From NCBI GenBank assembly GCA_903828145.1, contig CAIKKY010000010.1:100039-164038 (forward strand): a DNA stretch of 64,000 bases. Direction: 5' to 3'. The notes under the pieces were generated by a model, which did no database searches, was not told where the DNA came from, and saw nothing but the letters and a program-made list of their open reading frames with translations. Shown piece after piece: positions 21,455-32,597 of the stretch. Every line of letters starts with the position of its first letter. Within the stretch, counting starts at the first letter, position 1. A program made the position numbers and the translations under genes. Source of the DNA: an uncultured Hyphomicrobiales bacterium. GTDB lineage: Bacteria; Pseudomonadota; Alphaproteobacteria; Rhizobiales; Devosiaceae.

Positions 21455-24112
21455 TCAGGCACCCATAATTGCGCGATCAATGTCCGAAAACTGCTGGTCG
21501 CTCACCATGACAAACAAACAGTTCCCCTCGGAACTGTCGGCCCACAAGGCCCCGATCAAGGCCTTCTCTACAGCATCGTCTGCTGTGACTAAATGTTTAC
21601 CCTTGTATTCAACGACCAGAACCCGCCCGTCTTCGAGAAGCGCCACAAAGTCCGGATAAAACTTGTCAGTCGAGGTTTGCAGCCAGAAGGAATGAGGTTG
21701 GCTGGCGGTGTTGCGCACCCAGGTTTTCACCTGGGGCAACCTCTCAAGGTAGACGGCGCAGGCATACTCCTCTCCACTCGGCTCAAGGTCACCGACGACA
21801 CGACAAAAGTGCTTGTTGAAGATTGTCCCGCCCCGGTACGGCTGCCGGTAGGCATATTTTGACTCATCGAATTCCAGTTCCGCTTCGTGGCTTGTTTCAT
21901 AGCTCAGCACGCTGGGGACGAGAACGCGCTGAAAAGCCTGCTTTTCGCGTTCTTCCCGATAGTCAGCAATGGTGCGAGTCAAGGCATCAAGTACCTTGGC
22001 CTTGCCATAGGCGAGCGCTTCCAGCGTCATGCCCCTCGAGCTTTCGAGCGTGTCCAGCGCCTTCTTGATGAACAGTGTCGATGAAGTGCGCGTTATGTCT
22101 TGCCGCGATTGCAGGGGCAGGCGCCTGTCCAGCCAGTTGATCAGGTGTGGCCTGCTCCACCCCCGGTGCTCCAGGGTGAGAGCAAGTTGCTCGTGCAGGT
22201 CCTGCACAAAGGTCACTGTCGTTGTGCCAGCGTTGCTGACATTCAGATGAGCCTCGTTGGCCGCCGTCGTTGGCGGCGCAAAGTGCTTGATTATGGCCGC
22301 CGGGTCGCAGGTCTCAAGCGGCCACGGAACGTCCAGAAAGTGCGCCCGGTCAAAGAGTTCGAGACCATTGCCCTTGCGCACGCAGAGGAGCGGAACAGCG
22401 AAACGCGACGCATCCCGAGGGTCTGCCGGAGGCTTCAGCCGAGCGCCCCTCGACTTGTGGACCAAGGCTTCCACCGCTGAAGCCGCCGTTGCAGGCACCG
22501 CCAGCATGACGGCCGTCCTGTCGTAGTCGGTTAGCGCCCCGCGGGCGAGCAGCTTGCCATTGGCCACATCCACTTTCACCCGATGGCCCGTTGCTGTCTC
22601 CACATTCAGTTTGAAGGCCGCGGCATCCACACCCTCGGGAAGGCTTTCCTCATAGAGATAGGCCGAACCGCCCTCTTCCAGGCCGGTCAGGGTCGCTTCA
22701 TCGGTACGGACCAGAGCCTTGGCTTCGATCCGTTCGAAGCCATTGGCCACCAATCCCTCCTGCAGGTTGGTCGCGGTTTTCTGAAATGCTGTGGTGGTTG
22801 CAAATGCATAGGCCCGGTTCATGTCTTCATTGCGCTTGCGAGAGGCGCGCGGCAGCCGCAGCACCCGGCCCAGAAGCTGTTCCACCGCGCGGGGCGATTT
22901 CTGTTCCGCCACCGAACAGAGCACATAGGCAAAGGAGCAATCCCAGCCTTCTTTCAGCGCCTGTTGGGTAATGATGAAGCGCACCGGGCAATCCCGGTCG
23001 AACAGATCGACGCCATCCAGCCCTTTCGACTCGCCGGTCGCAATCACAACATGCGCGTCCGGCACGCGAAAATCGTTGAGCAGCAGCGCCTTCACCGCTT
23101 CGGCGTGCAGCGTATCCCGGTCTTTGGATTTCGCTTCGGATTGCAGCAGCATGACGGGGCGGATGAATTCGCCCGTGGCCTGTTCTTCTGCCTTTGCCGT
23201 CTCTGTCAGTTCATCCAGCCAGGCAATCGCATCGCTGATGGTTTCATTGGGATCGGCCCGTCCGCGCAGGATCACGGGAAGCTTGATCATCTCCGCCGCT
23301 TTGAGTTCGGCGGCGGAAACCTGATGCAGCACATTCGAGGCGTAGATGCCCTGTTCGGGCTTGTGCTCCTCCGGCGTGACCGGCGTTGCCGTGAATTCGA
23401 TGATCAGCGACGGATTCAGCCGCGCCAGCGTATCGAACGACAGCGCCGAGCGCGCATTGTGGGCTTCATCCACAATCACCATCGGGCGGCGCAAGCGCAA
23501 CACGTTCGCCAGCGACGGCACCGGATCACCGGAAGGGCCCGCGTCCAGCGTGTTGCGCAAGCCGCCGGCAAGCCCGGTGAAATGGTCCATCAATTCGCCA
23601 TTGGCGTCGTAGACCTTACGGCCCTCCGTCTCTTCGATGCGGAAGGCCTGTATCGTCGCGACGATTACCACCGCGCCGCCATCATAATCGGCGCGCCGGG
23701 CATAAAGGGCATCGGCAACCGTCATTACCCGGATATTTTCGCCGAAGCGATCCGCCAGCGCCCGACGGTTCGGGTGCGCCCGGTCCTGAAGTGTTTTCAA
23801 CGTCTGGTCGCGGATCGTCTGCGAGGGCACCAGCCACAGCACGACGGGCGCATCGGTGCGCAGAAAACTGTCGGCGGCAACCGCTACCGAATGCGCCGCA
23901 AGGATTGTCTTGCCGCCGCCGGTGGGAATGCGCAGGCACACATAGGGCAGGCCGGGTAGGCTTGGCACCGGCACAAACGGCCGCTTGGTGAGCGCATAAA
24001 ACGCCGTGTCGGCATCGTTCAATTCAACCGTCTTCTCGAGAAAACGGCGCAGCGCGCTCAGCGTCTGGGTCTGGTAGGTCTTCAGGCTGAACAGGGGCGA
24101 GGCCATGCTCAC
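21455..24112 (-). CDS. res: Type III restriction enzyme, Res subunit (DEAD-box helicase-nuclease)
   Basis: ATP-dependent restriction subunit of 885 residues. The SF2 helicase core has Walker A RIPTGGGKTILAAHS near residue 65, motif II VIVDEAHNARS, the ALKEGWDCSFAYVLCS block and motif VI EQLLGRVLRLPRA. At the C-terminus (about residues 818-838) lies a PD-(D/E)XK endonuclease, FYPDFVALLEDG then VVEYKGK, with all catalytic residues present. With Mod it cleaves unmethylated DNA after long-range communication between two sites. The GTG start at 24112 overlaps the mod stop (GTGA), giving translational coupling; ATG 24106 is an alternative. No frameshift is seen, so restriction should be active. Confidence 0.93.
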   Translation of the reverse strand: MSMASPLFSLKTYQTQTLSALRRFLEKTVELNDADTAFYALTKRPFVPVPSLPGLPYVCLRIPTGGGKTILAAHSVAVAADSFLRTDAPVVLWLVPSQTIRDQTLKTLQDRAHPNRRALADRFGENIRVMTVADALYARRADYDGGAVVIVATIQAFRIEETEGRKVYDANGELMDHFTGLAGGLRNTLDAGPSGDPVPSLANVLRLRRPMVIVDEAHNARSALSFDTLARLNPSLIIEFTATPVTPEEHKPEQGIYASNVLHQVSAAELKAAEMIKLPVILRGRADPNETISDAIAWLDELTETAKAEEQATGEFIRPVMLLQSEAKSKDRDTLHAEAVKALLLNDFRVPDAHVVIATGESKGLDGVDLFDRDCPVRFIITQQALKEGWDCSFAYVLCSVAEQKSPRAVEQLLGRVLRLPRASRKRNEDMNRAYAFATTTAFQKTATNLQEGLVANGFERIEAKALVRTDEATLTGLEEGGSAYLYEESLPEGVDAAAFKLNVETATGHRVKVDVANGKLLARGALTDYDRTAVMLAVPATAASAVEALVHKSRGARLKPPADPRDASRFAVPLLCVRKGNGLELFDRAHFLDVPWPLETCDPAAIIKHFAPPTTAANEAHLNVSNAGTTTVTFVQDLHEQLALTLEHRGWSRPHLINWLDRRLPLQSRQDITRTSSTLFIKKALDTLESSRGMTLEALAYGKAKVLDALTRTIADYREEREKQAFQRVLVPSVLSYETSHEAELEFDESKYAYRQPYRGGTIFNKHFCRVVGDLEPSGEEYACAVYLERLPQVKTWVRNTASQPHSFWLQTSTDKFYPDFVALLEDGRVLVVEYKGKHLVTADDAVEKALIGALWADSSEGNCLFVMVSDQQFSDIDRAIMGA

Positions 24113-25716
24113 AGCCCCTCGATTTGATAGGGGATTTGCTTGAAGGTGACACCAAGACGTGAAAGCCGGTCATCGGGCACCGTGCAGCCTTCGCCATAGA
24201 CGATGCGTGCGCCGCTGAAGCCGGGTTCAGGCAAGGGCAGCGAGTCGAGAACGCCGCCCGTGAGCACATTCCCGGCATTCGTGCTGGCAACGCCCATGGC
24301 GTCGGCATTGTGCAAGAGATAGATCGCCCGGCCTTGGAACGTGCCGATAAGCGGCGTTTCGCCCGTGGCACGGCGCGGAATGGGCGAACCCGTCTCGCAA
24401 AAGAAAACATGGGCAGCAAGGTCGGGGAAACTGACGGCGGCATTGACATTGCCATCGGCGTCAAAAAGGGGCTCGCCAAGGGTGCAGTAGCGGAAGCCGG
24501 AACCAACTAGTTCGGCACTGTCTCGGATCGCGAATTCAAGCCGCTTCTTTGTTACTGCCGTGCAGATGTGGCCGTCCATTTCTATCGCGATAAACTTGCG
24601 TCGTTTTTTCTGTATTTCACCAACACGGAATGCGGCATGTCCAGTTGTTCCACTTCCAGCAAAAGAGTCTAATATAAAATCACCTTCATTGGTCGCAATT
24701 TGAATAATTCGTTCGATCAATCTCGTTGGTGTAGGTGTATCGAATGCTGTTTGCGTACCAAATATTTCTCGGATTTCCTTCTTTGCTTCGTCGGTATGCC
24801 CAACCTCATCGTGCGTCCACCAAGTCCAAGGAGTCATGCCTTCTACTTCGGACAGATATCGCACTACACTCGGCTGCGCGTTTCCGTCCTTGCCCCAATA
24901 AATTCGACCTTGAGACTTCAACTTTACAAATTCGCTTTCGATCATTGACCAACAACGTCCTTCGGGCGGTTGATGCTCTTTGCCCGTCGGCGATATGATG
25001 GTGTACATCTGATTTGGTCGAAATCCCTGCGCTGTCATTGGCAAGCCGCGCCAACGCTTTGTTGGGTCCGTTTCCTTGGGGTTGTCGGGATTGCGGTAGA
25101 CCTTGGATTGCTCCTCGGTGAAATCGATCAAGTTTCGACCATTTTTGAACTTGAGCGGGTCTTTCCCGTAAACAGCAATGTATTCGTGTGCATCACCAAT
25201 CGCTTCGCGGTTTTCGCGGCTGTAGCGCTTTTGCCAAACGTTCGATGCAATGAATTTTTCTCTCCCGAAAATTTCATCCATCACCATCCGTAGTGAGTGG
25301 CTTTCGGCGTCATCAATCGAAATCCAGATCGACCCCTCTTCGCTCAAAAACTCCTTCAGCAACCGCAGGCGCGGATACATCATGCATAGCCATTTGTCGT
25401 GCCGTGACAGGTCCTCGGCTTCCTTGCCAACAACTTTGCCAAGCCACGCCTTCATTTCCGGCGAGTTCACGTTGTCGTTGTAAACCCAGCTTTCGTTGCC
25501 GGTATTATAGGGCGGGTCGATATAGATGCACTTCACCTTGCCCGCATAATACGGAAGCAGTGCTTTGAGCGCTTCGAGGTTATCGCCCTGCACCAGCAGG
25601 TTGCCCGCGTCCGGATCGCCGACGCTTTTGGCTTTGTCGCAATGGATCAGCCGGTACGGCACCTCGCGATGGTGGTTGACCACCGCCTTCTTGCCAAGCC
25701 AGTCCAACGTGGGCAT
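24109..25716 (-). CDS. mod: Type III DNA methyltransferase, Mod subunit
   Basis: Modification and site-recognition subunit of 535 residues. Motif IV DPPYNTGNESW precedes motif I LDSFAGSGTTGHAA, so the order is that of a beta-class N6-adenine methyltransferase, as in type III Mod proteins. The start is ATG 25716 (MPTLDWLGKKAVVNHH), preceded by GGAGGAAGGAAAGGAC; the 43 extra residues of the ORF run towards the tRNA region and are not conserved-looking. The stretch about 24580-25300 (between motif IV and motif I, where the target-recognition domain lies) is clearly AT-richer than the flanks. The pair sits just 5' of the tRNA-Arg gene used by the integrative element but outside its repeats. Confidence 0.93.
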   Translation of the reverse strand: MPTLDWLGKKAVVNHHREVPYRLIHCDKAKSVGDPDAGNLLVQGDNLEALKALLPYYAGKVKCIYIDPPYNTGNESWVYNDNVNSPEMKAWLGKVVGKEAEDLSRHDKWLCMMYPRLRLLKEFLSEEGSIWISIDDAESHSLRMVMDEIFGREKFIASNVWQKRYSRENREAIGDAHEYIAVYGKDPLKFKNGRNLIDFTEEQSKVYRNPDNPKETDPTKRWRGLPMTAQGFRPNQMYTIISPTGKEHQPPEGRCWSMIESEFVKLKSQGRIYWGKDGNAQPSVVRYLSEVEGMTPWTWWTHDEVGHTDEAKKEIREIFGTQTAFDTPTPTRLIERIIQIATNEGDFILDSFAGSGTTGHAAFRVGEIQKKRRKFIAIEMDGHICTAVTKKRLEFAIRDSAELVGSGFRYCTLGEPLFDADGNVNAAVSFPDLAAHVFFCETGSPIPRRATGETPLIGTFQGRAIYLLHNADAMGVASTNAGNVLTGGVLDSLPLPEPGFSGARIVYGEGCTVPDDRLSRLGVTFKQIPYQIEGL

Positions 25717-25951
25717 CCGCTGTCCTTTCCTTCCTCCATGATATAAGTTTTTACACGTATCACGAAAAAGGTCGACAAGCAGTAAAGCGGGGTAGTCCCG
25801 CTCCAGTCGTGCGTCCGCAGACAGCGCTAAGCGGCAGCGCATCAATCGGGGCGCGCGCTATCAGGTTGGCCAGTCTCTGATCCGCCTGCGCGCTGCTGTG
25901 CGCCCGCGCTGACAGCCGCTTGCACTCGGTCGCCTGATGTCTTATTGGCTC

Positions 25952-26035
<84 letters not shown>

Positions 26036-26136: not shown

Positions 26137-27132
26137 ATGGCCGCAATACGCAAGCGTGGAGAGAAGTGGCAGGTCCAAGTCAGGCGGCTTGGACAGCGAA
26201 GCGTGTCACGCACATTCATTAGATTGAAGGATGCCCAGGAATGGGCACGCAGCTCGGAAGTGGCTGCAGACCGCGAGGGTCTGGGTGCCGATCGGAGTGC
26301 ACTGAAGAGGCTGACGCTCGGAGAGCTTGTGCGGCGCTACCGCGATGAGGTCGTCGCCAAGAAGAAGAGTACACAGGTGGAGACCATCGTGTTGGATGCC
26401 TTCGCTCGGCATCCGATCTGTAACAAGAGCCTCTCAGCATTAAAGATGACGGACTTCGTTCGCTATCGGGACGAGAGACTGGAAGAGGTGGCTGCAGCCA
26501 CTGTGCGTCGTCAGCTCAATCCGATCCGGCATATGTTCAATGTCGCAATTGATGAATGGGGCATGCCCCTGCCAGAGAACCCGCTTGCCAAGGTGAAGGT
26601 AAAGGGAGCTGACAAGCGGCGAGAGAGGCGGTTGAAAGCTGGCGAGTTTGAGCGCCTCATGCAAGTGGCAGTTGTGTGCCAGACCCCGCACCTTGCAGCC
26701 ATAATCGAGTTCGCGGTCGAGACGGGTATGAGGCGCGGCGAAATCCTCGCCATGCGCTGGGAGCATCTGCAGCTCGACAAAGGGCTGTTACTAATCCCCG
26801 AGACAAAGACGGGACATCCCCGCACCATTCCTCTGACCGCAAGAGCAAAGTGGCTGCTGAGTGCGAGACTAGGCACACAGGGGAGAGTGTTCAGCCTGTC
26901 GGCCAATGCACTCCGACTTGCTTGGGAAAGAGTGACCCGCAAAGCGGGCATAGATGACCTGCACTTCCATGACCTTCGGCATGAGGCGATCAGCCGCTTC
27001 TTCGAGATGGGACTGACAATGCCTGAGGTGGGATCGATCTCTGGGCACAGGGATGCTCGCATGTTGCTGCGCTATGCGCATGCCAAGGTCGAGGAGCTGG
27101 CAGAAAAATTGCAGATCAGTACTCGTCCGTAG
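26137..27132 (+). CDS. int: Tyrosine recombinase / phage integrase
   Basis: Site-specific integrase of 331 residues. The N-terminus (MAAIRKRGEKWQVQVRR) is a short beta-sheet arm-binding domain, then a SAM-like core-binding domain (about 60-150) and a C-terminal catalytic domain. Catalytic residues are all visible: Arg199 in TGMRRGE, Lys in ETKTGHPRTIPL, His278 and Arg281 in HDLRH, His304 in SGHRD and the nucleophile Tyr313 in LLRYAH. It would recombine the 84-bp tRNA repeats. ATG 26137 follows GAGGGACCGGCA. No excisionase gene is recognisable nearby. Confidence 0.95.
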   Translation: MAAIRKRGEKWQVQVRRLGQRSVSRTFIRLKDAQEWARSSEVAADREGLGADRSALKRLTLGELVRRYRDEVVAKKKSTQVETIVLDAFARHPICNKSLSALKMTDFVRYRDERLEEVAAATVRRQLNPIRHMFNVAIDEWGMPLPENPLAKVKVKGADKRRERRLKAGEFERLMQVAVVCQTPHLAAIIEFAVETGMRRGEILAMRWEHLQLDKGLLLIPETKTGHPRTIPLTARAKWLLSARLGTQGRVFSLSANALRLAWERVTRKAGIDDLHFHDLRHEAISRFFEMGLTMPEVGSISGHRDARMLLRYAHAKVEELAEKLQISTRP

Positions 27133-27290: not shown

Positions 27291-27824
27291 TTGGACACAG
27301 ATACTGTTTTCGACTGCGACGGAAATGCAGTTGAGCTGCTCAGGCCTAATTTTGATGGAATTCCCATCGAACTTCAGGAGCGGTGCCGCTGGGCTGTTTG
27401 GAAGGCGACCCCCCGTGAGGGCAATCCGGGGAAGTTCAACAAGGCCCCCGTCAGCCCAACCACTCGCCGAATGATCGGAACCAACAAGCCGGAGCTGTGG
27501 GGGTCCTTTGCTGAGGCCAAAGCCGCTTATGAAGCGGGCGGCTACACAGGGGTTGGCCTTCTTCTGGATGGGTCTGGCCTCATCGGCATCGACATCGACG
27601 ATGCATCAGCCGCGATGCGGACCGTGCCAGACCTTACCCAGTGGATCAAAGATGCCTCCAAGGCTGGCGCCTACCTTGAGCTTTCTCCCAGCAATAAGGG
27701 CCTTCGTCTCTTTCTAGAAGGTCAGCTTGTCGAAGCCGTGAAGGGCGGACCGCTGGAAGTCTATACCGATAGGCGCTTCATGACTGTCACCGGGCGCCAG
27801 CCGGGAGCTAAGCGCGATGCTTAA
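27291..27824 (+). CDS. Primase-polymerase N-terminal domain protein of the element
   Basis: A 177-residue protein resembling the N-terminal prim-pol domain of phage and plasmid primase-helicases. Typical blocks are RCRWAVWKATPREGNPGKFNKAPVSP, GGYTGVGLLLDGSGLIGIDIDD (the acidic metal-binding pair), YLELSPSNKGLRLFLEG and the end block EVYTDRRFMTVTGRQ. It would prime or synthesise DNA at the element's origin. The start is TTG 27291, set by a strong AAGGAG seven bases before it. The stop overlaps the next ATG by 8 bp in the +1 frame; relatives often carry this domain and the helicase on one chain, so this may be a split gene. Confidence 0.75.
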   Translation: MDTDTVFDCDGNAVELLRPNFDGIPIELQERCRWAVWKATPREGNPGKFNKAPVSPTTRRMIGTNKPELWGSFAEAKAAYEAGGYTGVGLLLDGSGLIGIDIDDASAAMRTVPDLTQWIKDASKAGAYLELSPSNKGLRLFLEGQLVEAVKGGPLEVYTDRRFMTVTGRQPGAKRDA

Positions 27825-29472
27825 TATTACGGGTGGTCAGAACCTTATCGACCGTTTTGCGGGCATGGCCGCAGCACAGAAGGGCTCTGGCCGCAATGTG
27901 CCTGTCGCTGTGGCAACTGCCACCAATGCCCCGCCTGCGGCGAATAGCAACAAGCAGCACTCGGCGGAAGTAGCCGCAATTTTGGCCGTTGTGTCGCAGG
28001 AGGCGCTTTGGGCCGGGGACTGGCAGAACTGCCTTGACCACTCAGGCAAGTCCTATACGTCCCAAAGCGAGGCCGACTACAGCCTCTTGGGCGCCATCGT
28101 GAAGGAGGCTTACTTCTTGGGCCTCCCCGAGAGCCTGGTGCCGTCCATTGCCGAGCAGGTGTGGGTACAGTCAGGGCTCTACCGGCCTGAAAAACTGCAT
28201 CGTGTTCGCACGCAGGACATTCCCAATCAGATCGAAGATAAGCGCGGATTGCTGCCTCGGACACAGGGTGGTTTGGAAATTATTGGGGGCCCTACGCGCC
28301 ACAAGCGATTGATTGGAGACGGGCGGCTTTCGGTGCCGACAACCCCTCCTCCGCCTCGGGACTACATTCTTGAGGGGCTTCTGCTCAGGTCCACGCCCGC
28401 TGTGTTGGCAGGGGCTGGTGGTACGTCAAAGACCATGTTGTCGATCCAACTGGCGATCGCGTTTGCGCTGGGGCGCGACATCCTTGAGAAGAAGTCTACA
28501 GAGGGTTGCTCCCTGCTGTTGTTAGCCGAAGAAGACCAGAGCGAAGCTAAACGGCGGGTCGGGGCGGTTTGTGCCCACCTCGGGCTGTCACCTGCAGAAC
28601 GGCTGATGGTCGAGGAACGTGTGCGGATTTTCCCGCTTGTGGGGGTCGATGCTCGGCTGACTGCATTTGACCAGAAGGTGCGTAGCCTGGCGAGCACAGC
28701 CTTTGATGAGGAGATCATCGCTACCGCCCAACAGATTGTGTCAGGAACCGGCATTCCTATGAGTTTGGTTGTTTTGGACCACGCTGGCATTATGCACGGC
28801 GGCATGTTCGATGCCCGCGAAGATACCGCACAGACGATGCGTATTGTTGCCCGAATTGCCCAGGAGACGAAGGCAGCTACCCTGCTGCTAGCGCATTCCC
28901 CGAAAGCATCAGCCTCAAAGGACTTTTCTGATGCGCAGGACGTCGCGGGTTCGGCAGCGTGGACGGACCATGCTCGTGCGGCCTTTGTTTTGCGCTCGAT
29001 GACGAAGGCAGCGGCAAAGCCGTTCGGCATCCCTGATGCCCTGCTGGGGAATTATGTGACCTTCAGCGTGGTGAAGAACAACTATGGCCCGTCACACGAG
29101 AGCATTCCTTTGGAGCGCTACGTTGTGCCGAACTACTCCGTCAGCGTTTTGCAGCCCTATAACCAGATTGCCGTCATGCGGTCCGCCCAGCCTTCGCTGG
29201 TGGACAAAGTGGTAAAACTCGTCGGCGACCACCCCCGCCAGTACTCGAAGACGACGCTGCGCGAAAAGCATAGCGGGATCAGGGGGACCTTGGGAGCCAG
29301 TAAGCAAAACGTTGCTGATGCCATTGAGCAGGCACTCTCGAGCGGCAGGCTCGTTCAAGTGAAACCCTCCGCTGCGGACCGCAAGGCTCATGGGCTCAAA
29401 GCACAGGTTAGGGAAGTCCTAGACACTCCCAGCCGCCTGCCGCCTGCCGCCCAATCGGACGGCAACGCCTAA
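27817..29472 (+). CDS. RepA-like AAA ATPase / replicative helicase of the element
   Basis: A 551-residue ATPase. The N-terminal block ALWAGDW-SQSEADYSLLGAI resembles the helical segment that follows prim-pol domains. The RecA-like core has Walker A GAGGTSKT (about residues 199-206), Walker B SLVVLDHAG, sensor-like TLLLAHSPKAS and FSVVKNNYGP, typical of RepA/AAA_25 helicases. The C-terminus (SLVDKVVKLVGDHPRQYSKTTL) looks like a winged helix. It probably unwinds DNA at the element's origin together with the preceding prim-pol protein; the ATG lies inside the end of that gene (ATGCTTAA), so translation is coupled. Confidence 0.85.
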   Translation: MLNITGGQNLIDRFAGMAAAQKGSGRNVPVAVATATNAPPAANSNKQHSAEVAAILAVVSQEALWAGDWQNCLDHSGKSYTSQSEADYSLLGAIVKEAYFLGLPESLVPSIAEQVWVQSGLYRPEKLHRVRTQDIPNQIEDKRGLLPRTQGGLEIIGGPTRHKRLIGDGRLSVPTTPPPPRDYILEGLLLRSTPAVLAGAGGTSKTMLSIQLAIAFALGRDILEKKSTEGCSLLLLAEEDQSEAKRRVGAVCAHLGLSPAERLMVEERVRIFPLVGVDARLTAFDQKVRSLASTAFDEEIIATAQQIVSGTGIPMSLVVLDHAGIMHGGMFDAREDTAQTMRIVARIAQETKAATLLLAHSPKASASKDFSDAQDVAGSAAWTDHARAAFVLRSMTKAAAKPFGIPDALLGNYVTFSVVKNNYGPSHESIPLERYVVPNYSVSVLQPYNQIAVMRSAQPSLVDKVVKLVGDHPRQYSKTTLREKHSGIRGTLGASKQNVADAIEQALSSGRLVQVKPSAADRKAHGLKAQVREVLDTPSRLPPAAQSDGNA

Positions 29473-29523
29473 AAAAGGCGGGTTCAAAGGCCCGGATTTA
29501 CAGGGGTTACAGCCGCTTTTTTT
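29471..29523 (+). terminator. Probable terminator after the RepA-like gene
   Basis: AAAAAAGGCGG directly after the stop pairs with CCGCTTTTTTT (one G-T wobble) around a 30-nt loop, and the stem ends in the T7 run. The same CAGCCGC bases also belong to the competing inverted repeats described next. Confidence 0.55.
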
Positions 29524-29590
29524 GTGCCGCCCGCAACTACCCCCCTCACAGGCGGCTGAAACCCTAACAAATCCGGGCCTTTCAGCCGCC
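29486..29590. repeat. Three-armed, mutually exclusive inverted repeats (candidate origin or RNA switch)
   Basis: Arm L (29486-29516, AAAGGCCCGGATTT...CAGCCGC) pairs with arm M (29552-29582, GCGGCTG...AAATCCGGGCCTTT) at 26 of 31 positions across a 35-nt loop. Arm M instead pairs perfectly over 11 bp with arm R: GGCGGCTGAAA (29551-29561) with TTTCAGCCGCC (29580-29590). L-M and M-R cannot form together. The position immediately after the replication genes fits an origin, but an RNA-level switch is equally possible. Confidence 0.7.
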
Positions 29591-29850
29591 CTCCAAACCT
29601 AACGTCTTACAGACGTCTGTCGCCTTCGGGCGACAAGACTGTCTGCCTGTGCACAGAAAGGGTAGCCTATGCGTTTGAACACTGCCCACGTAGGCTCACC
29701 TCTTTTAGGGGGCTTTGATACGTTCATCAGGGTCGGACCCCAGCTAAAACGGCGCTCTATACAGGGCGCCGCCATCACTAACCCGTGTGCCTCGTTAGGC
29801 ACTTTCTTCAATTCTTGGTCACAGCTTTCCAACTGACACGACAGTGTATC
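29591..29850. other. Structured non-coding stretch of the element
   Basis: No convincing plus-strand gene. It contains a perfect 12-bp palindrome ACAGACGTCTGT (29609-29620), a TTCG-loop hairpin TGTCGCC/GGCGACA (29618-29635) and GTGCCT-CGTT-AGGCAC followed by TTTCTTC (29787-29808), which could terminate a transcript. A 77-codon minus-strand ORF (29599-29832) spans it, but I cannot support it as a gene. A structured RNA or part of the replication origin is the more likely content. Confidence 0.4.
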
Positions 29851-29890
29851 AATGATAGTATATGTATGTGATCACGCAGAGGTGCGCCAT

Positions 29891-30184
29891 ATGAGCACGA
29901 AGACGTTTCTGATATTGTCTGCGCTTGCAATATTTGCAGCAGTATCGTTATCCAACGGCATGTTGAATGGATTTATGGCAACAATTTTATGCTTTTTCTT
30001 GGCCGGATTTTTTGGTTTTATGTTTTCTTTTGTGTTTGGCGACAGCGCAGGCCGTGTCGCTCTGTTTATAGTCATGGGGATTCTCGTTTTCGCTGCCGTC
30101 ACATCCCCGGAAAGTTTTAGAGGCGGCGGGCGGTATAGTTGGGAGGGTGATACCTGCGTCCAAAGCCGATACGTCGGATGTTGA
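29891..30184 (+). CDS. Small membrane protein of the element (97 aa)
   Basis: Not recognised by family. Three hydrophobic stretches (about residues 5-20, 23-48 and 57-76) make it an inner-membrane protein, followed by a short polar tail with two cysteines (CVQSRYVGC). ATG 29891 has AGAGG eight bases upstream, which favours it over the ORF start at 29852. The gene is distinctly AT-rich compared with the chromosome, consistent with transfer. A role in envelope modification or phage exclusion is possible but not shown. Confidence 0.6.
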   Translation: MSTKTFLILSALAIFAAVSLSNGMLNGFMATILCFFLAGFFGFMFSFVFGDSAGRVALFIVMGILVFAAVTSPESFRGGGRYSWEGDTCVQSRYVGC

Positions 30185-30210
30185 AGTTCTGCCGCCACCA
30201 GTGAGGAGCC

Positions 30211-30558
30211 ATGTACCTGCGACATTACCGGGAACAGCTGCGGCAAATCAGGGAAGCGAGCCTCCGTGCGGAGGAGGAGCAGCGCCAGCGCAAGGCTAGT
30301 CAGAGTGCAGCGCCGACCTACAAGCCCCTTGACCAGCAGATCGAGGAACTGATGCGCTCGCTACCCCCTGCGCAGAGGGACCGTCCTTGGTCGATGGATG
30401 AACTGGTGCTCAGGCTACAAGGGCGCTATCGCCCCCATCCACATCCGAAGGATGTCGGGACAGCCCTGAGGCGGCTAGGCTGGCAGAGGGTGAGGGATTG
30501 GTCTGCTGTCGGCTGCGGTATGCGAGTTTGGACACGAAGCGAAAATCACGGAAGTTAA
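30211..30558 (+). CDS. Winged-helix-like small protein of the element (115 aa)
   Basis: The N-terminal 35 residues are a charged helix (YREQLRQIREASLRAEEEQRQ) that may form a coiled coil. Residues about 60-108 read like a small winged-helix domain: PWSMDELVLRLQGRY, KDVGTALRRLGWQRVRDW and MRVWTRS, the GxALRRLGW pattern seen in DNA-binding tails of phage replication proteins. It may regulate or assist replication of the element. The start is preceded by GAGGAG. It converges with and slightly overlaps the next minus-strand gene. Confidence 0.65.
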   Translation: MYLRHYREQLRQIREASLRAEEEQRQRKASQSAAPTYKPLDQQIEELMRSLPPAQRDRPWSMDELVLRLQGRYRPHPHPKDVGTALRRLGWQRVRDWSAVGCGMRVWTRSENHGS

Positions 30559-30794
30559 CTGTTCGTTTTAAATCGCGAGAAGAAACACACGCACAAGATA
30601 ACAATACCCCACGCCCACATCTCTCCGTTGTCTAGGCCGGGAAGCGTCACAAAATCGCGCACAAGCGCGGCCAAAATGCATAGGCCACCAACGGCATATC
30701 CTAATAAGCGCATTTGTGGGCTCCGGTAGCACCAGTACAGAAATCCGATCCCCAAACCCCACCGGAGCATCTGATTAATTGTTTCTTCGAACAT
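30555..30794 (-). CDS. Small membrane protein, minus strand (79 aa)
   Basis: Not recognised by family. After an amphipathic N-terminus (MFEETINQMLRWG) there are about three hydrophobic segments (GLGIGFLYWCY, LLGYAVGGLCILAALV, WAWGIVILCVCFF). ATG 30794 follows AAAGGCGGAAA and is preferred over 30815. It is the only element gene on this strand, overlapping the end of the winged-helix gene by 4 bp. The coding evidence is the ribosome-binding site and a plausible topology only. Confidence 0.45.
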   Translation of the reverse strand: MFEETINQMLRWGLGIGFLYWCYRSPQMRLLGYAVGGLCILAALVRDFVTLPGLDNGEMWAWGIVILCVCFFSRFKTNS

Positions 30795-30960
30795 TTTCCG
30801 CCTTTCGGGCTCCACAGGGAAGAGTGCTCGCAGTCAGCATCTAAAGTCACACGGTGGCAGCTGCGTAACGCTCTGACAGAGAGTATCAAATTGGCGCTTG
30901 CATGCGAGACTGTTCTTGTTCAGTTTGCGGCTAGGATGGCCAAGGCGTTTCGGTGTCAAT

Positions 30961-32283
30961 ATGAGCGGGAAGTCGCACGTCGGCGCACTAGCGGTACTCT
31001 TTCTTGCATCAACTCTGGGGTCCGCCAAGGCCCAAATTGCTGAGTTTGAGGACGTAAGTGCTTGGAAGACCTATACAGTTACTCAAAAGCTCGCATCTGG
31101 TTTGAAGGGTTGCATTGCAAACCAGACCGAACCTGCCTCATCGCCCTCCTTTTGGATACAACAGACAACTGACGGGAGAATTGGCTTCGCATTCTCCGGT
31201 GGCAATTGGAATATAGGGCCCAATCACCTCACAAGCGGATCAGTGACTTTTGAGAATGGATTTAAATATCCGTTCTATATGCGGCAAAATCCGCCCATGC
31301 TTGAAATTTTCGTTAATGATGTCGCGAATTCGGCGTCAATGAAGAGTGCAATTGCGAAAAGCAAATTCGTAAAAGTGTATCTCGAGTGGGCTGGTATTTT
31401 TGGGAACATAAATAAGAAGTTTTCTCTTGCCGGGTCTGCCGATGCGCTTCGTAGTCTTGATCGGTGTATTGCGCAGATTGCAGTAGACGAGGAGACGCGT
31501 GCGGCAGAGGCGGAGCAAGCTCGTGAGGCATTGAGGAAAAAAGCTGCAGAGTGGAAGGCCGCAGAGGAAGCACAAAAAGCTGCGGAGGAAGAAAAGAATA
31601 CCAGCGAAGGTAACAGTACACCACAGACGCAGCCCGCCGCACCCTTGCCAGCGCTTTATTCGGCTGGCAGCGGCTTCGTTGTGGGTGGCGATGGAAGCAT
31701 CATAACGAACGCGCACGTGGTCGCTGAGTGTAACCAGTTGCAGGTCGTGGATGCATCTGGCCAAAAATTTAAGGCCAATCTGAGGGGTGTTGACCCATCA
31801 AATGACCTTGCCCTTCTGCAGTCAGGCGCCGTGCCAAGAGCTGTGGCAGAACTACGTCTTTCGCCCTCACTTAGGCCGGGTGACAAGGTTGCGGTGTACG
31901 GGTATCCCTTACCTGGCACACTTTCGGACACGGGAAACATTGTATCGGGAACACTTAGCTCGCTTTTAGGCATCCAGAATGACGTGCGTTTCGTTCAGTT
32001 TTCCGCGCCTATACAGCCGGGCAACAGCGGAGGAGCGCTTTTAGATAGCGCTGGCAATGCAGTCGGGATTGCCACTATGAAACTTGATGAATTGGCCATG
32101 TCACAAGAGGTGGGAGTGTTTCCCCAAAATGTAAATTTTGCTGTGCGTATTTCAATAGTGGCAAGTTTTTTGGATGCCTTTGGCGTGCAGTACAAGGCTG
32201 CGAGTTCGATTGAGGAACGACCGCTTCCTGACGTGGCAGACCTAGCAAGGGCGTTTTCTATGCAGGTTTTGTGCTACCGTTGA
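30961..32283 (+). CDS. Secreted trypsin-like serine protease with N-terminal sensor-like module
   Basis: 440 residues. A Sec signal peptide (about 1-24, ending SAKAQ) exports it. Residues 25-175 form an unrecognised beta-rich module with two cysteines (LKGCIANQ, SLDRCIAQ) that could be disulfide-linked. A charged Ala/Glu-rich helix (about 178-215) and a Gln/Pro linker lead into a chymotrypsin-fold protease with an intact triad: His252 in TNAHVV, Asp282 in SNDLALLQ and Ser356 in PGNSGGALL. The motifs are HtrA-like but no PDZ domain follows. ATG 30961 is chosen because the signal peptide then begins properly. As cargo of a mobile element it may act on the host envelope or on incoming phage or plasmids; that is inference. 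Confidence 0.85.
   Translation: MSGKSHVGALAVLFLASTLGSAKAQIAEFEDVSAWKTYTVTQKLASGLKGCIANQTEPASSPSFWIQQTTDGRIGFAFSGGNWNIGPNHLTSGSVTFENGFKYPFYMRQNPPMLEIFVNDVANSASMKSAIAKSKFVKVYLEWAGIFGNINKKFSLAGSADALRSLDRCIAQIAVDEETRAAEAEQAREALRKKAAEWKAAEEAQKAAEEEKNTSEGNSTPQTQPAAPLPALYSAGSGFVVGGDGSIITNAHVVAECNQLQVVDASGQKFKANLRGVDPSNDLALLQSGAVPRAVAELRLSPSLRPGDKVAVYGYPLPGTLSDTGNIVSGTLSSLLGIQNDVRFVQFSAPIQPGNSGGALLDSAGNAVGIATMKLDELAMSQEVGVFPQNVNFAVRISIVASFLDAFGVQYKAASSIEERPLPDVADLARAFSMQVLCYR

Positions 32284-32513: not shown

Positions 32514-32597
<84 letters not shown>

Follow-up and report, generated by a model that had tools for sequence, protein, structure and literature searches.

A stem-loop inverted repeat directly after repA as a putative replication origin of an integrated element in an uncultured Hyphomicrobiales bacterium

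An inverted repeat at positions 29476-29592 of the 64,000-nt window (the whole stretch of DNA analysed here) is probably the replication origin of a 6.56-kb integrated element in an uncultured Hyphomicrobiales bacterium. Judged from sequence comparison, the predicted winged helix of the RepA protein would read a motif that recurs in the repeat, and the prim-pol of the same element would perform the priming. The initial annotation had offered either a structured origin or an RNA attenuator; the former is favoured by the repeat arrays, C-tracts and shared-arm layouts found directly after repA in many distant relatives, and the latter is disfavoured by the absence of an Rfam match, the unbalanced pairings and the separate promoter-like site of the next gene.

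The element is bracketed by two tRNA-Arg(CCG) genes that are identical over 77/77 nt. Most of the genus relatives checked carry a single full-length copy of this gene, and a few have extra partial tRNA-Arg matches, some of which are confined to the 3′ part of the tRNA. The main features of the element are as follows.

25959-26035, plus strand: tRNA-Arg(CCG), left border (ARAGORN; 77/77 nt identical to the right copy)
26137-27132, plus strand: tyrosine integrase (Pfam Phage_integrase, 5e-27; PHROG integrase, 6e-65)
27291-27824, plus strand: small prim-pol with an archaeo-eukaryotic-type primase domain, 177 aa (PHROG primases, to 1.7e-28)
27817-29472, plus strand: RepA-like hexameric-helicase protein with an AAA_25 core, 551 aa (Pfam AAA_25, 4.5e-24)
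29476-29592, no strand assigned: whole inverted repeat, putative stem-loop replication origin (sequence, folding and inverted-repeat scans)
29833-29861, plus strand: sigma-70-like promoter site before the next ORF (9 of 12, TG before the -10)
32521-32597, plus strand: tRNA-Arg(CCG), right border (ARAGORN; identical to the left copy)

The prim-pol was assigned from sequence searches, and its structure model was too poor for use. It matched the PDB primases 7ola and 6a9w at 4e-11 to 1e-10, which we take to be the SaPI5 and NrS-1 primases, and its Pfam Prim-Pol match lay only below the cut-off. The core of RepA resembles that of RSF1010 RepA, both by sequence (1g8y, 2e-17) and by a Foldseek comparison of the predicted fold (1nlf, 5e-17). 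At its C-terminus, about residues 461-529, AlphaFold places the order H-H-H-H-E-E with pLDDT of about 70-84, and this domain is predicted to be winged-helix-like. Downstream of the repeat are a few small ORFs followed by a trypsin-like (HtrA-type) protein; the ORFs at 29852-30815 matched no PHROG or trusted Pfam family. The trypsin-like (HtrA/Do-type) serine protease ORF itself (30952-32280) is odd cargo for a 6.5-kb element. Immediately outside the left tRNA-Arg border, a DNA methylase (N6_N4_Mtase) lies beside a ResIII/helicase protein on the minus strand (21455-25845), a pair that resembles a type III restriction-modification system.

The repeat begins 4 bp after repA. Its 41-nt arms match at 78%, and its span of about 29476-29592 is longer than initially annotated: the end moves to about 29592 because GGCGG (29477-29481) pairs with CCGCC (29586-29590) and extends the repeat. 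The parts of the repeat are listed below, with L, M and R denoting its left, middle and right arms.

29477-29488, minus strand: motif copy 1, GGCGGGTTCAAA, degenerate (sequence)
29486-29499, no strand assigned: outer stem, left half, AAAGGCCCGGATTT (perfect pairing with 29569-29582)
29505-29516, plus strand: motif copy 2, GGTTACAGCCGC, distal part of arm L (sequence)
29517-29523, plus strand: T7 run in the central loop (sequence)
29537-29545, plus strand: C-tract CTACCCCCC, within the L-M loop (fits TA-CCCC, the motif found enriched in relatives 3′ of repA)
29551-29563, minus strand: motif copy 3, GGCGGCTGAAACC, start of arm M (sequence)
29569-29582, no strand assigned: outer stem, right half, AAATCCGGGCCTTT (pairs with the left half, 29486-29499)
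29580-29590, plus strand: motif copy 4, TTTCAGCCGCC, arm R (sequence)

All four copies derive from one CAGCCGC-centred motif with a consensus of about GGTTnCAGCCGCC, arranged in the order minus, plus, minus, plus. Such an alternating set, one copy of it degenerate, beside a putative initiator gene is an iteron-type feature. The middle two copies (2 and 3) flank the T7 run and the C-tract, and the outer stem formed by AAAGGCCCGGATTT and AAATCCGGGCCTTT belongs to the long stem, yet is not accounted for by the motif. Both pairings reported in the initial annotation were reproduced exactly: L (29486-29516) is complementary to M (29552-29582) at 26 of 31 positions, and M (29551-29561, GGCGGCTGAAA) pairs with R (29580-29590) over 11 of 11. 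Since neighbouring motif copies are inverted, the middle arm is able to pair with either neighbour. The apparent competition among L, M and R is thus a by-product of one motif in alternating orientation and needs no switch. Shortly after the main repeat, at 29610-29640, comes a further small hairpin (GTCGCCTTCGGGCGAC), whose loop is cTTCGg and which adjoins a GACGTC-type repeat.

L/M outscores every other inverted repeat in the 64-kb window, at 18.5 against 15.5 for the next; the highest score in 10 simulated 64-kb windows was 15.0, and none of 3000 local Markov simulations matched the L/M score. Raw folding energy is not discriminating in this GC-rich window, and therefore z-scores and inverted-repeat scores were used as evidence instead. 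The z-scores were -8.5 (plus strand) and -4.9 (minus strand) for RNA and -6.2 and -4.1 for DNA; the repeat folds unusually well on either strand, as RNA or as DNA.

The strong predicted fold of the sense-strand RNA (z -8.5), together with the mutually exclusive pairings and the T7 run that follows a weak left-arm stem, speaks for an RNA element (an attenuator, terminator or regulatory RNA) placed last in the replication operon and able to switch between the L-M and M-R pairings. Exclusive as they are, the two pairings are far from balanced: the full L-M fold reaches -60.4 kcal/mol as RNA, against -17.6 plus -23.4 for the local hairpins, and is thereby favoured by about 19 kcal/mol. The best Rfam matches were at chance level, far below gathering scores, a separate promoter-like site precedes the downstream ORF, and distant relatives keep the position and orientation of the repeats, often without the long stem. 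An RNA element is accordingly quite improbable as the main explanation. Of the terminator-like stem previously proposed at the end of L, the weak left-arm hairpin (29470-29523) and its T7 run (29517-29523) are present, but the terminator scan did not call it; possibly the T7 run terminates transcription in addition to an origin role.

Relatives of the element were sought at the protein and DNA levels. Protein searches of genome contigs and viral contigs (queries P0001 and P0002) returned no close relatives, and a DNA search of 300 genomes gave short chance-level matches only. A REPIN/MITE-like palindromic mobile repeat, or another unrelated insertion that landed after repA by chance, would share the geometry of a 41-nt hairpin unit present in two inverted copies. 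However, the repeat is absent from 299 relatives at meaningful similarity, and other repeat arrays occupy the same position in relatives, so that a chance insertion is very improbable; a dispersed repeat of the REPIN type was rejected, as there is a single copy in the genome.

RepA homologs of roughly 24-32% identity were collected from genomes of the same order, giving 49 loci (the window and 48 others), and a further 30 non-redundant loci came from viral contigs; the two sets likely overlap to some extent in kind (proviruses). The repeat-coverage score was fixed after inspecting 18 RepA loci, which are among those scored, and was then applied unchanged to the viral-contig loci. The 250 bp after repA fell in the top 5% of repeat coverage among the windows of the same locus in 27 of the 49 same-order loci (window included) and in 19 of the 30 viral-contig loci. 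Element-specific repeats covered a median of 72 bp in the 250 bp 3′ of repA compared with 20 bp after other ORFs (p about 1e-15, an approximate value, as for all the repeat-coverage tests, because control windows overlap and ancestry is shared). Inverted repeats scoring at least 11 followed repA at 19/79 loci and other ORFs at 4/124. Examples of the element-specific repeats 0-250 bp after AAA_25/RepA genes (loci L060-L103 and L104-L183) are TTCCAACGCC, TTACCCCCTGC and GCGATCTCCCC. In most relatives the repeat arrays include no long hairpin; it is therefore a DNA-repeat pattern that recurs, rather than an RNA stem.

The pattern has exceptions. The repeat coverage of the window itself is unremarkable within its locus (fraction 0.097), and some RepA homologs, such as those at L078, L080, L090 and L091, are without repeats. 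Among lytic and named phages with related primases or RepA, the layout is absent from Langgrundblatt1, Pfeifenkraut, FtMidnight, Kopi, PSV3, the Wolbachia phage WOVitA2, the Manatee Spring Caudoviricetes phage and a Vibrio phage.

A short tract accompanies the repeats in many of these loci. The sequence ATACCCC is enriched 70-fold 3′ of repA, on the coding strand only (14 vs 2), and the pattern TA[AT]{0,2}CCCC occurs at 34 of 78 RepA loci compared with 114 of 3543 control windows (p = 4e-28). In many loci the tract is flanked by inverted repeat copies, and where both occur the motif copies tend to lie in plus orientation upstream of the tract and in minus orientation downstream, with exceptions. 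The loop between L and M in the window contains a tract of this type, TACCCCCC, and the central motif pair obeys the same orientation. The shared-arm layout, described initially as competing, was found at 16 of 78 other RepA loci (p = 6.5e-7). It also occurs as three arms 9 bp past the stop codon of a prim-pol protein that has DUF3987 as its partner domain instead (locus L206), where the loop contains the C/G-tract CCCCTTAAAAGGGG. Searches of open-licence papers turned up no description of a TA-CCCC tract 3′ of RepA genes. Tentatively, these loci might represent an undescribed origin type, common to mobile elements with a RepA helicase (AAA_25) and a prim-pol in alphaproteobacteria and their phages. 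Its element-specific repeats, placed directly 3′ of the replication gene, would be inverted across a strand-specific TA-CCCC tract serving as a common opening or primer-start site, and the present element would be the extreme hairpin form.

Evidence on the protein that may read the motif came from co-variation. Once the remainder of RepA is corrected for, motif similarity between elements tracks the similarity of its last 110 residues (partial r = 0.15, permutation p = 0.002), and the converse effect is weaker (0.08, p = 0.02). This co-variation is modest, but its direction is that predicted by binding of the C-terminus to the motif. Counting against an origin are the small number of motif copies in the window, only four with one of them degenerate, and the centre of the repeat, which is not AT-rich, unlike that of PICI origins.

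Initiation at the putative origin may proceed in four steps. The C-terminal winged-helix domain of RepA, as suggested by its predicted fold and by the co-variation with the motif, would bind the motif copies. The RepA hexamer would then be loaded and the duplex opened, perhaps aided by hairpin extrusion; on single strands, the long L-M stem would dominate over the local hairpins. Primer synthesis by the prim-pol would begin on the loops thus exposed, with the C-tract as a possible start site, and the circularised element would finally be copied by host polymerases.

Known systems share parts of this arrangement. Replication of the Sulfolobus plasmid pRN1 requires a stem-loop of roughly 100 nt that lies 3′ of the prim-pol gene and that, placed elsewhere, restores replication; the structure of the stem-loop is kept while its sequence diverges, and similar stem-loops have been suggested for some phages (PMC4234260). 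The 117-nt stem-loop described here likewise lies directly after the prim-pol/repA operon, and the predicted winged helix of RepA has a counterpart at the C-terminus of the pRN1 replication protein. The pRN1 protein, however, is a single chain that unites a prim-pol with an SF3 helicase and a winged helix, whereas the present element has separate genes for a prim-pol and a RecA-fold RepA-type helicase; pRN1 is reported without iterons (PMC4234260), whereas one motif recurs here; and the function of the stem-loop was shown in pRN1, whereas here it is deduced from sequence. In PICIs, the ori is located immediately 3′ of rep (PMC6092414). The order int, pri, rep, ori of PICIs and SaPIs is paralleled by integrase, prim-pol, RepA and, 4 bp on, the putative ori; the integrase adjoins one of the two identical tRNA-Arg(CCG) genes, as at an attachment site, and short element-specific repeats surround a centre. 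This centre consists of a T-run and a C-tract, in contrast to the AT-rich PICI centre between two iteron sets, and a long stem is formed by repeats of alternating orientation. None of the genes exclusive to PICIs (interference, terS, capsid remodelling) was identified in the element, whose trypsin-like ORF does not belong to the PICI genes. P4, with its alpha protein and ori, is similar as a chromosomal primase and helicase element with a repeat-bearing origin and a winged helix (as described in PMC4234260). The P4 primase differs in being of Toprim type and fused.

At the oriV of IncQ plasmids, RepC binds iterons, RepA opens the DNA and RepB′ primes the hairpins ssiA and ssiB (PMC4234260). 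The two 41-nt units of the present repeat are inverted copies of each other that face across 35 nt, and the hairpins at 29476-29516 and 29552-29592 might likewise be facing single-strand initiation sites on opposite strands. The repeat would still be an origin in this case, but its hairpins would be sites for the primase, recognised by the prim-pol once RepA has opened the duplex, and not RepA-binding sites. The homology of the RepA helicases (1g8y, 2e-17) fits such a scheme, as does the RSF1010 precedent, in which RepA exposes hairpins and the primase primes them (PMC4234260). One IncQ1 plasmid (L057) has, about 200 bp past its iterons, facing 34-nt repeats that are 88% complementary and separated by 66 nt. 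The repeat nevertheless has no sequence likeness to the IncQ ssi repeats, the element has no RepC and no separate iteron array, its primase belongs to another family, with the SaPI5 and NrS-1 primases as its nearest matches, and the motif arrays persist in relatives without a linked prim-pol. Facing primase sites are thus an unlikely alternative to motif copies read by RepA. Membership in IncQ was rejected although the RepA homology is real: RepC and 22-bp tandem iterons characterise the IncQ oriV, and neither a RepC-like ORF (Pfam/PHROG) nor 20-22-bp tandem iterons after repA were found here. In the IncQ-like Polaromonas plasmid pPNAP08 (L058, 5650-6230), an ATCC/GGAT dyad motif occurs at least 12 times around two GTTTCACGTGAAAC palindromes, which is suggestive of parS-like sites inside the origin region.

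In the window, a helicase of IncQ type occurs together with the gene order of a PICI and a stem-loop like that of pRN1, with full membership in none of the three. If the repeat is an origin read by RepA and primed by the prim-pol, the apparent RNA switch would become an expected by-product of alternating binding sites, and the element would offer a testable system for joint replication start by a RepA helicase and a stand-alone prim-pol. The origins of many unannotated proviruses and integrated elements could then be located by a rule, namely repeats around TA-CCCC right after repA, and portable replicons for alphaproteobacteria would become feasible.
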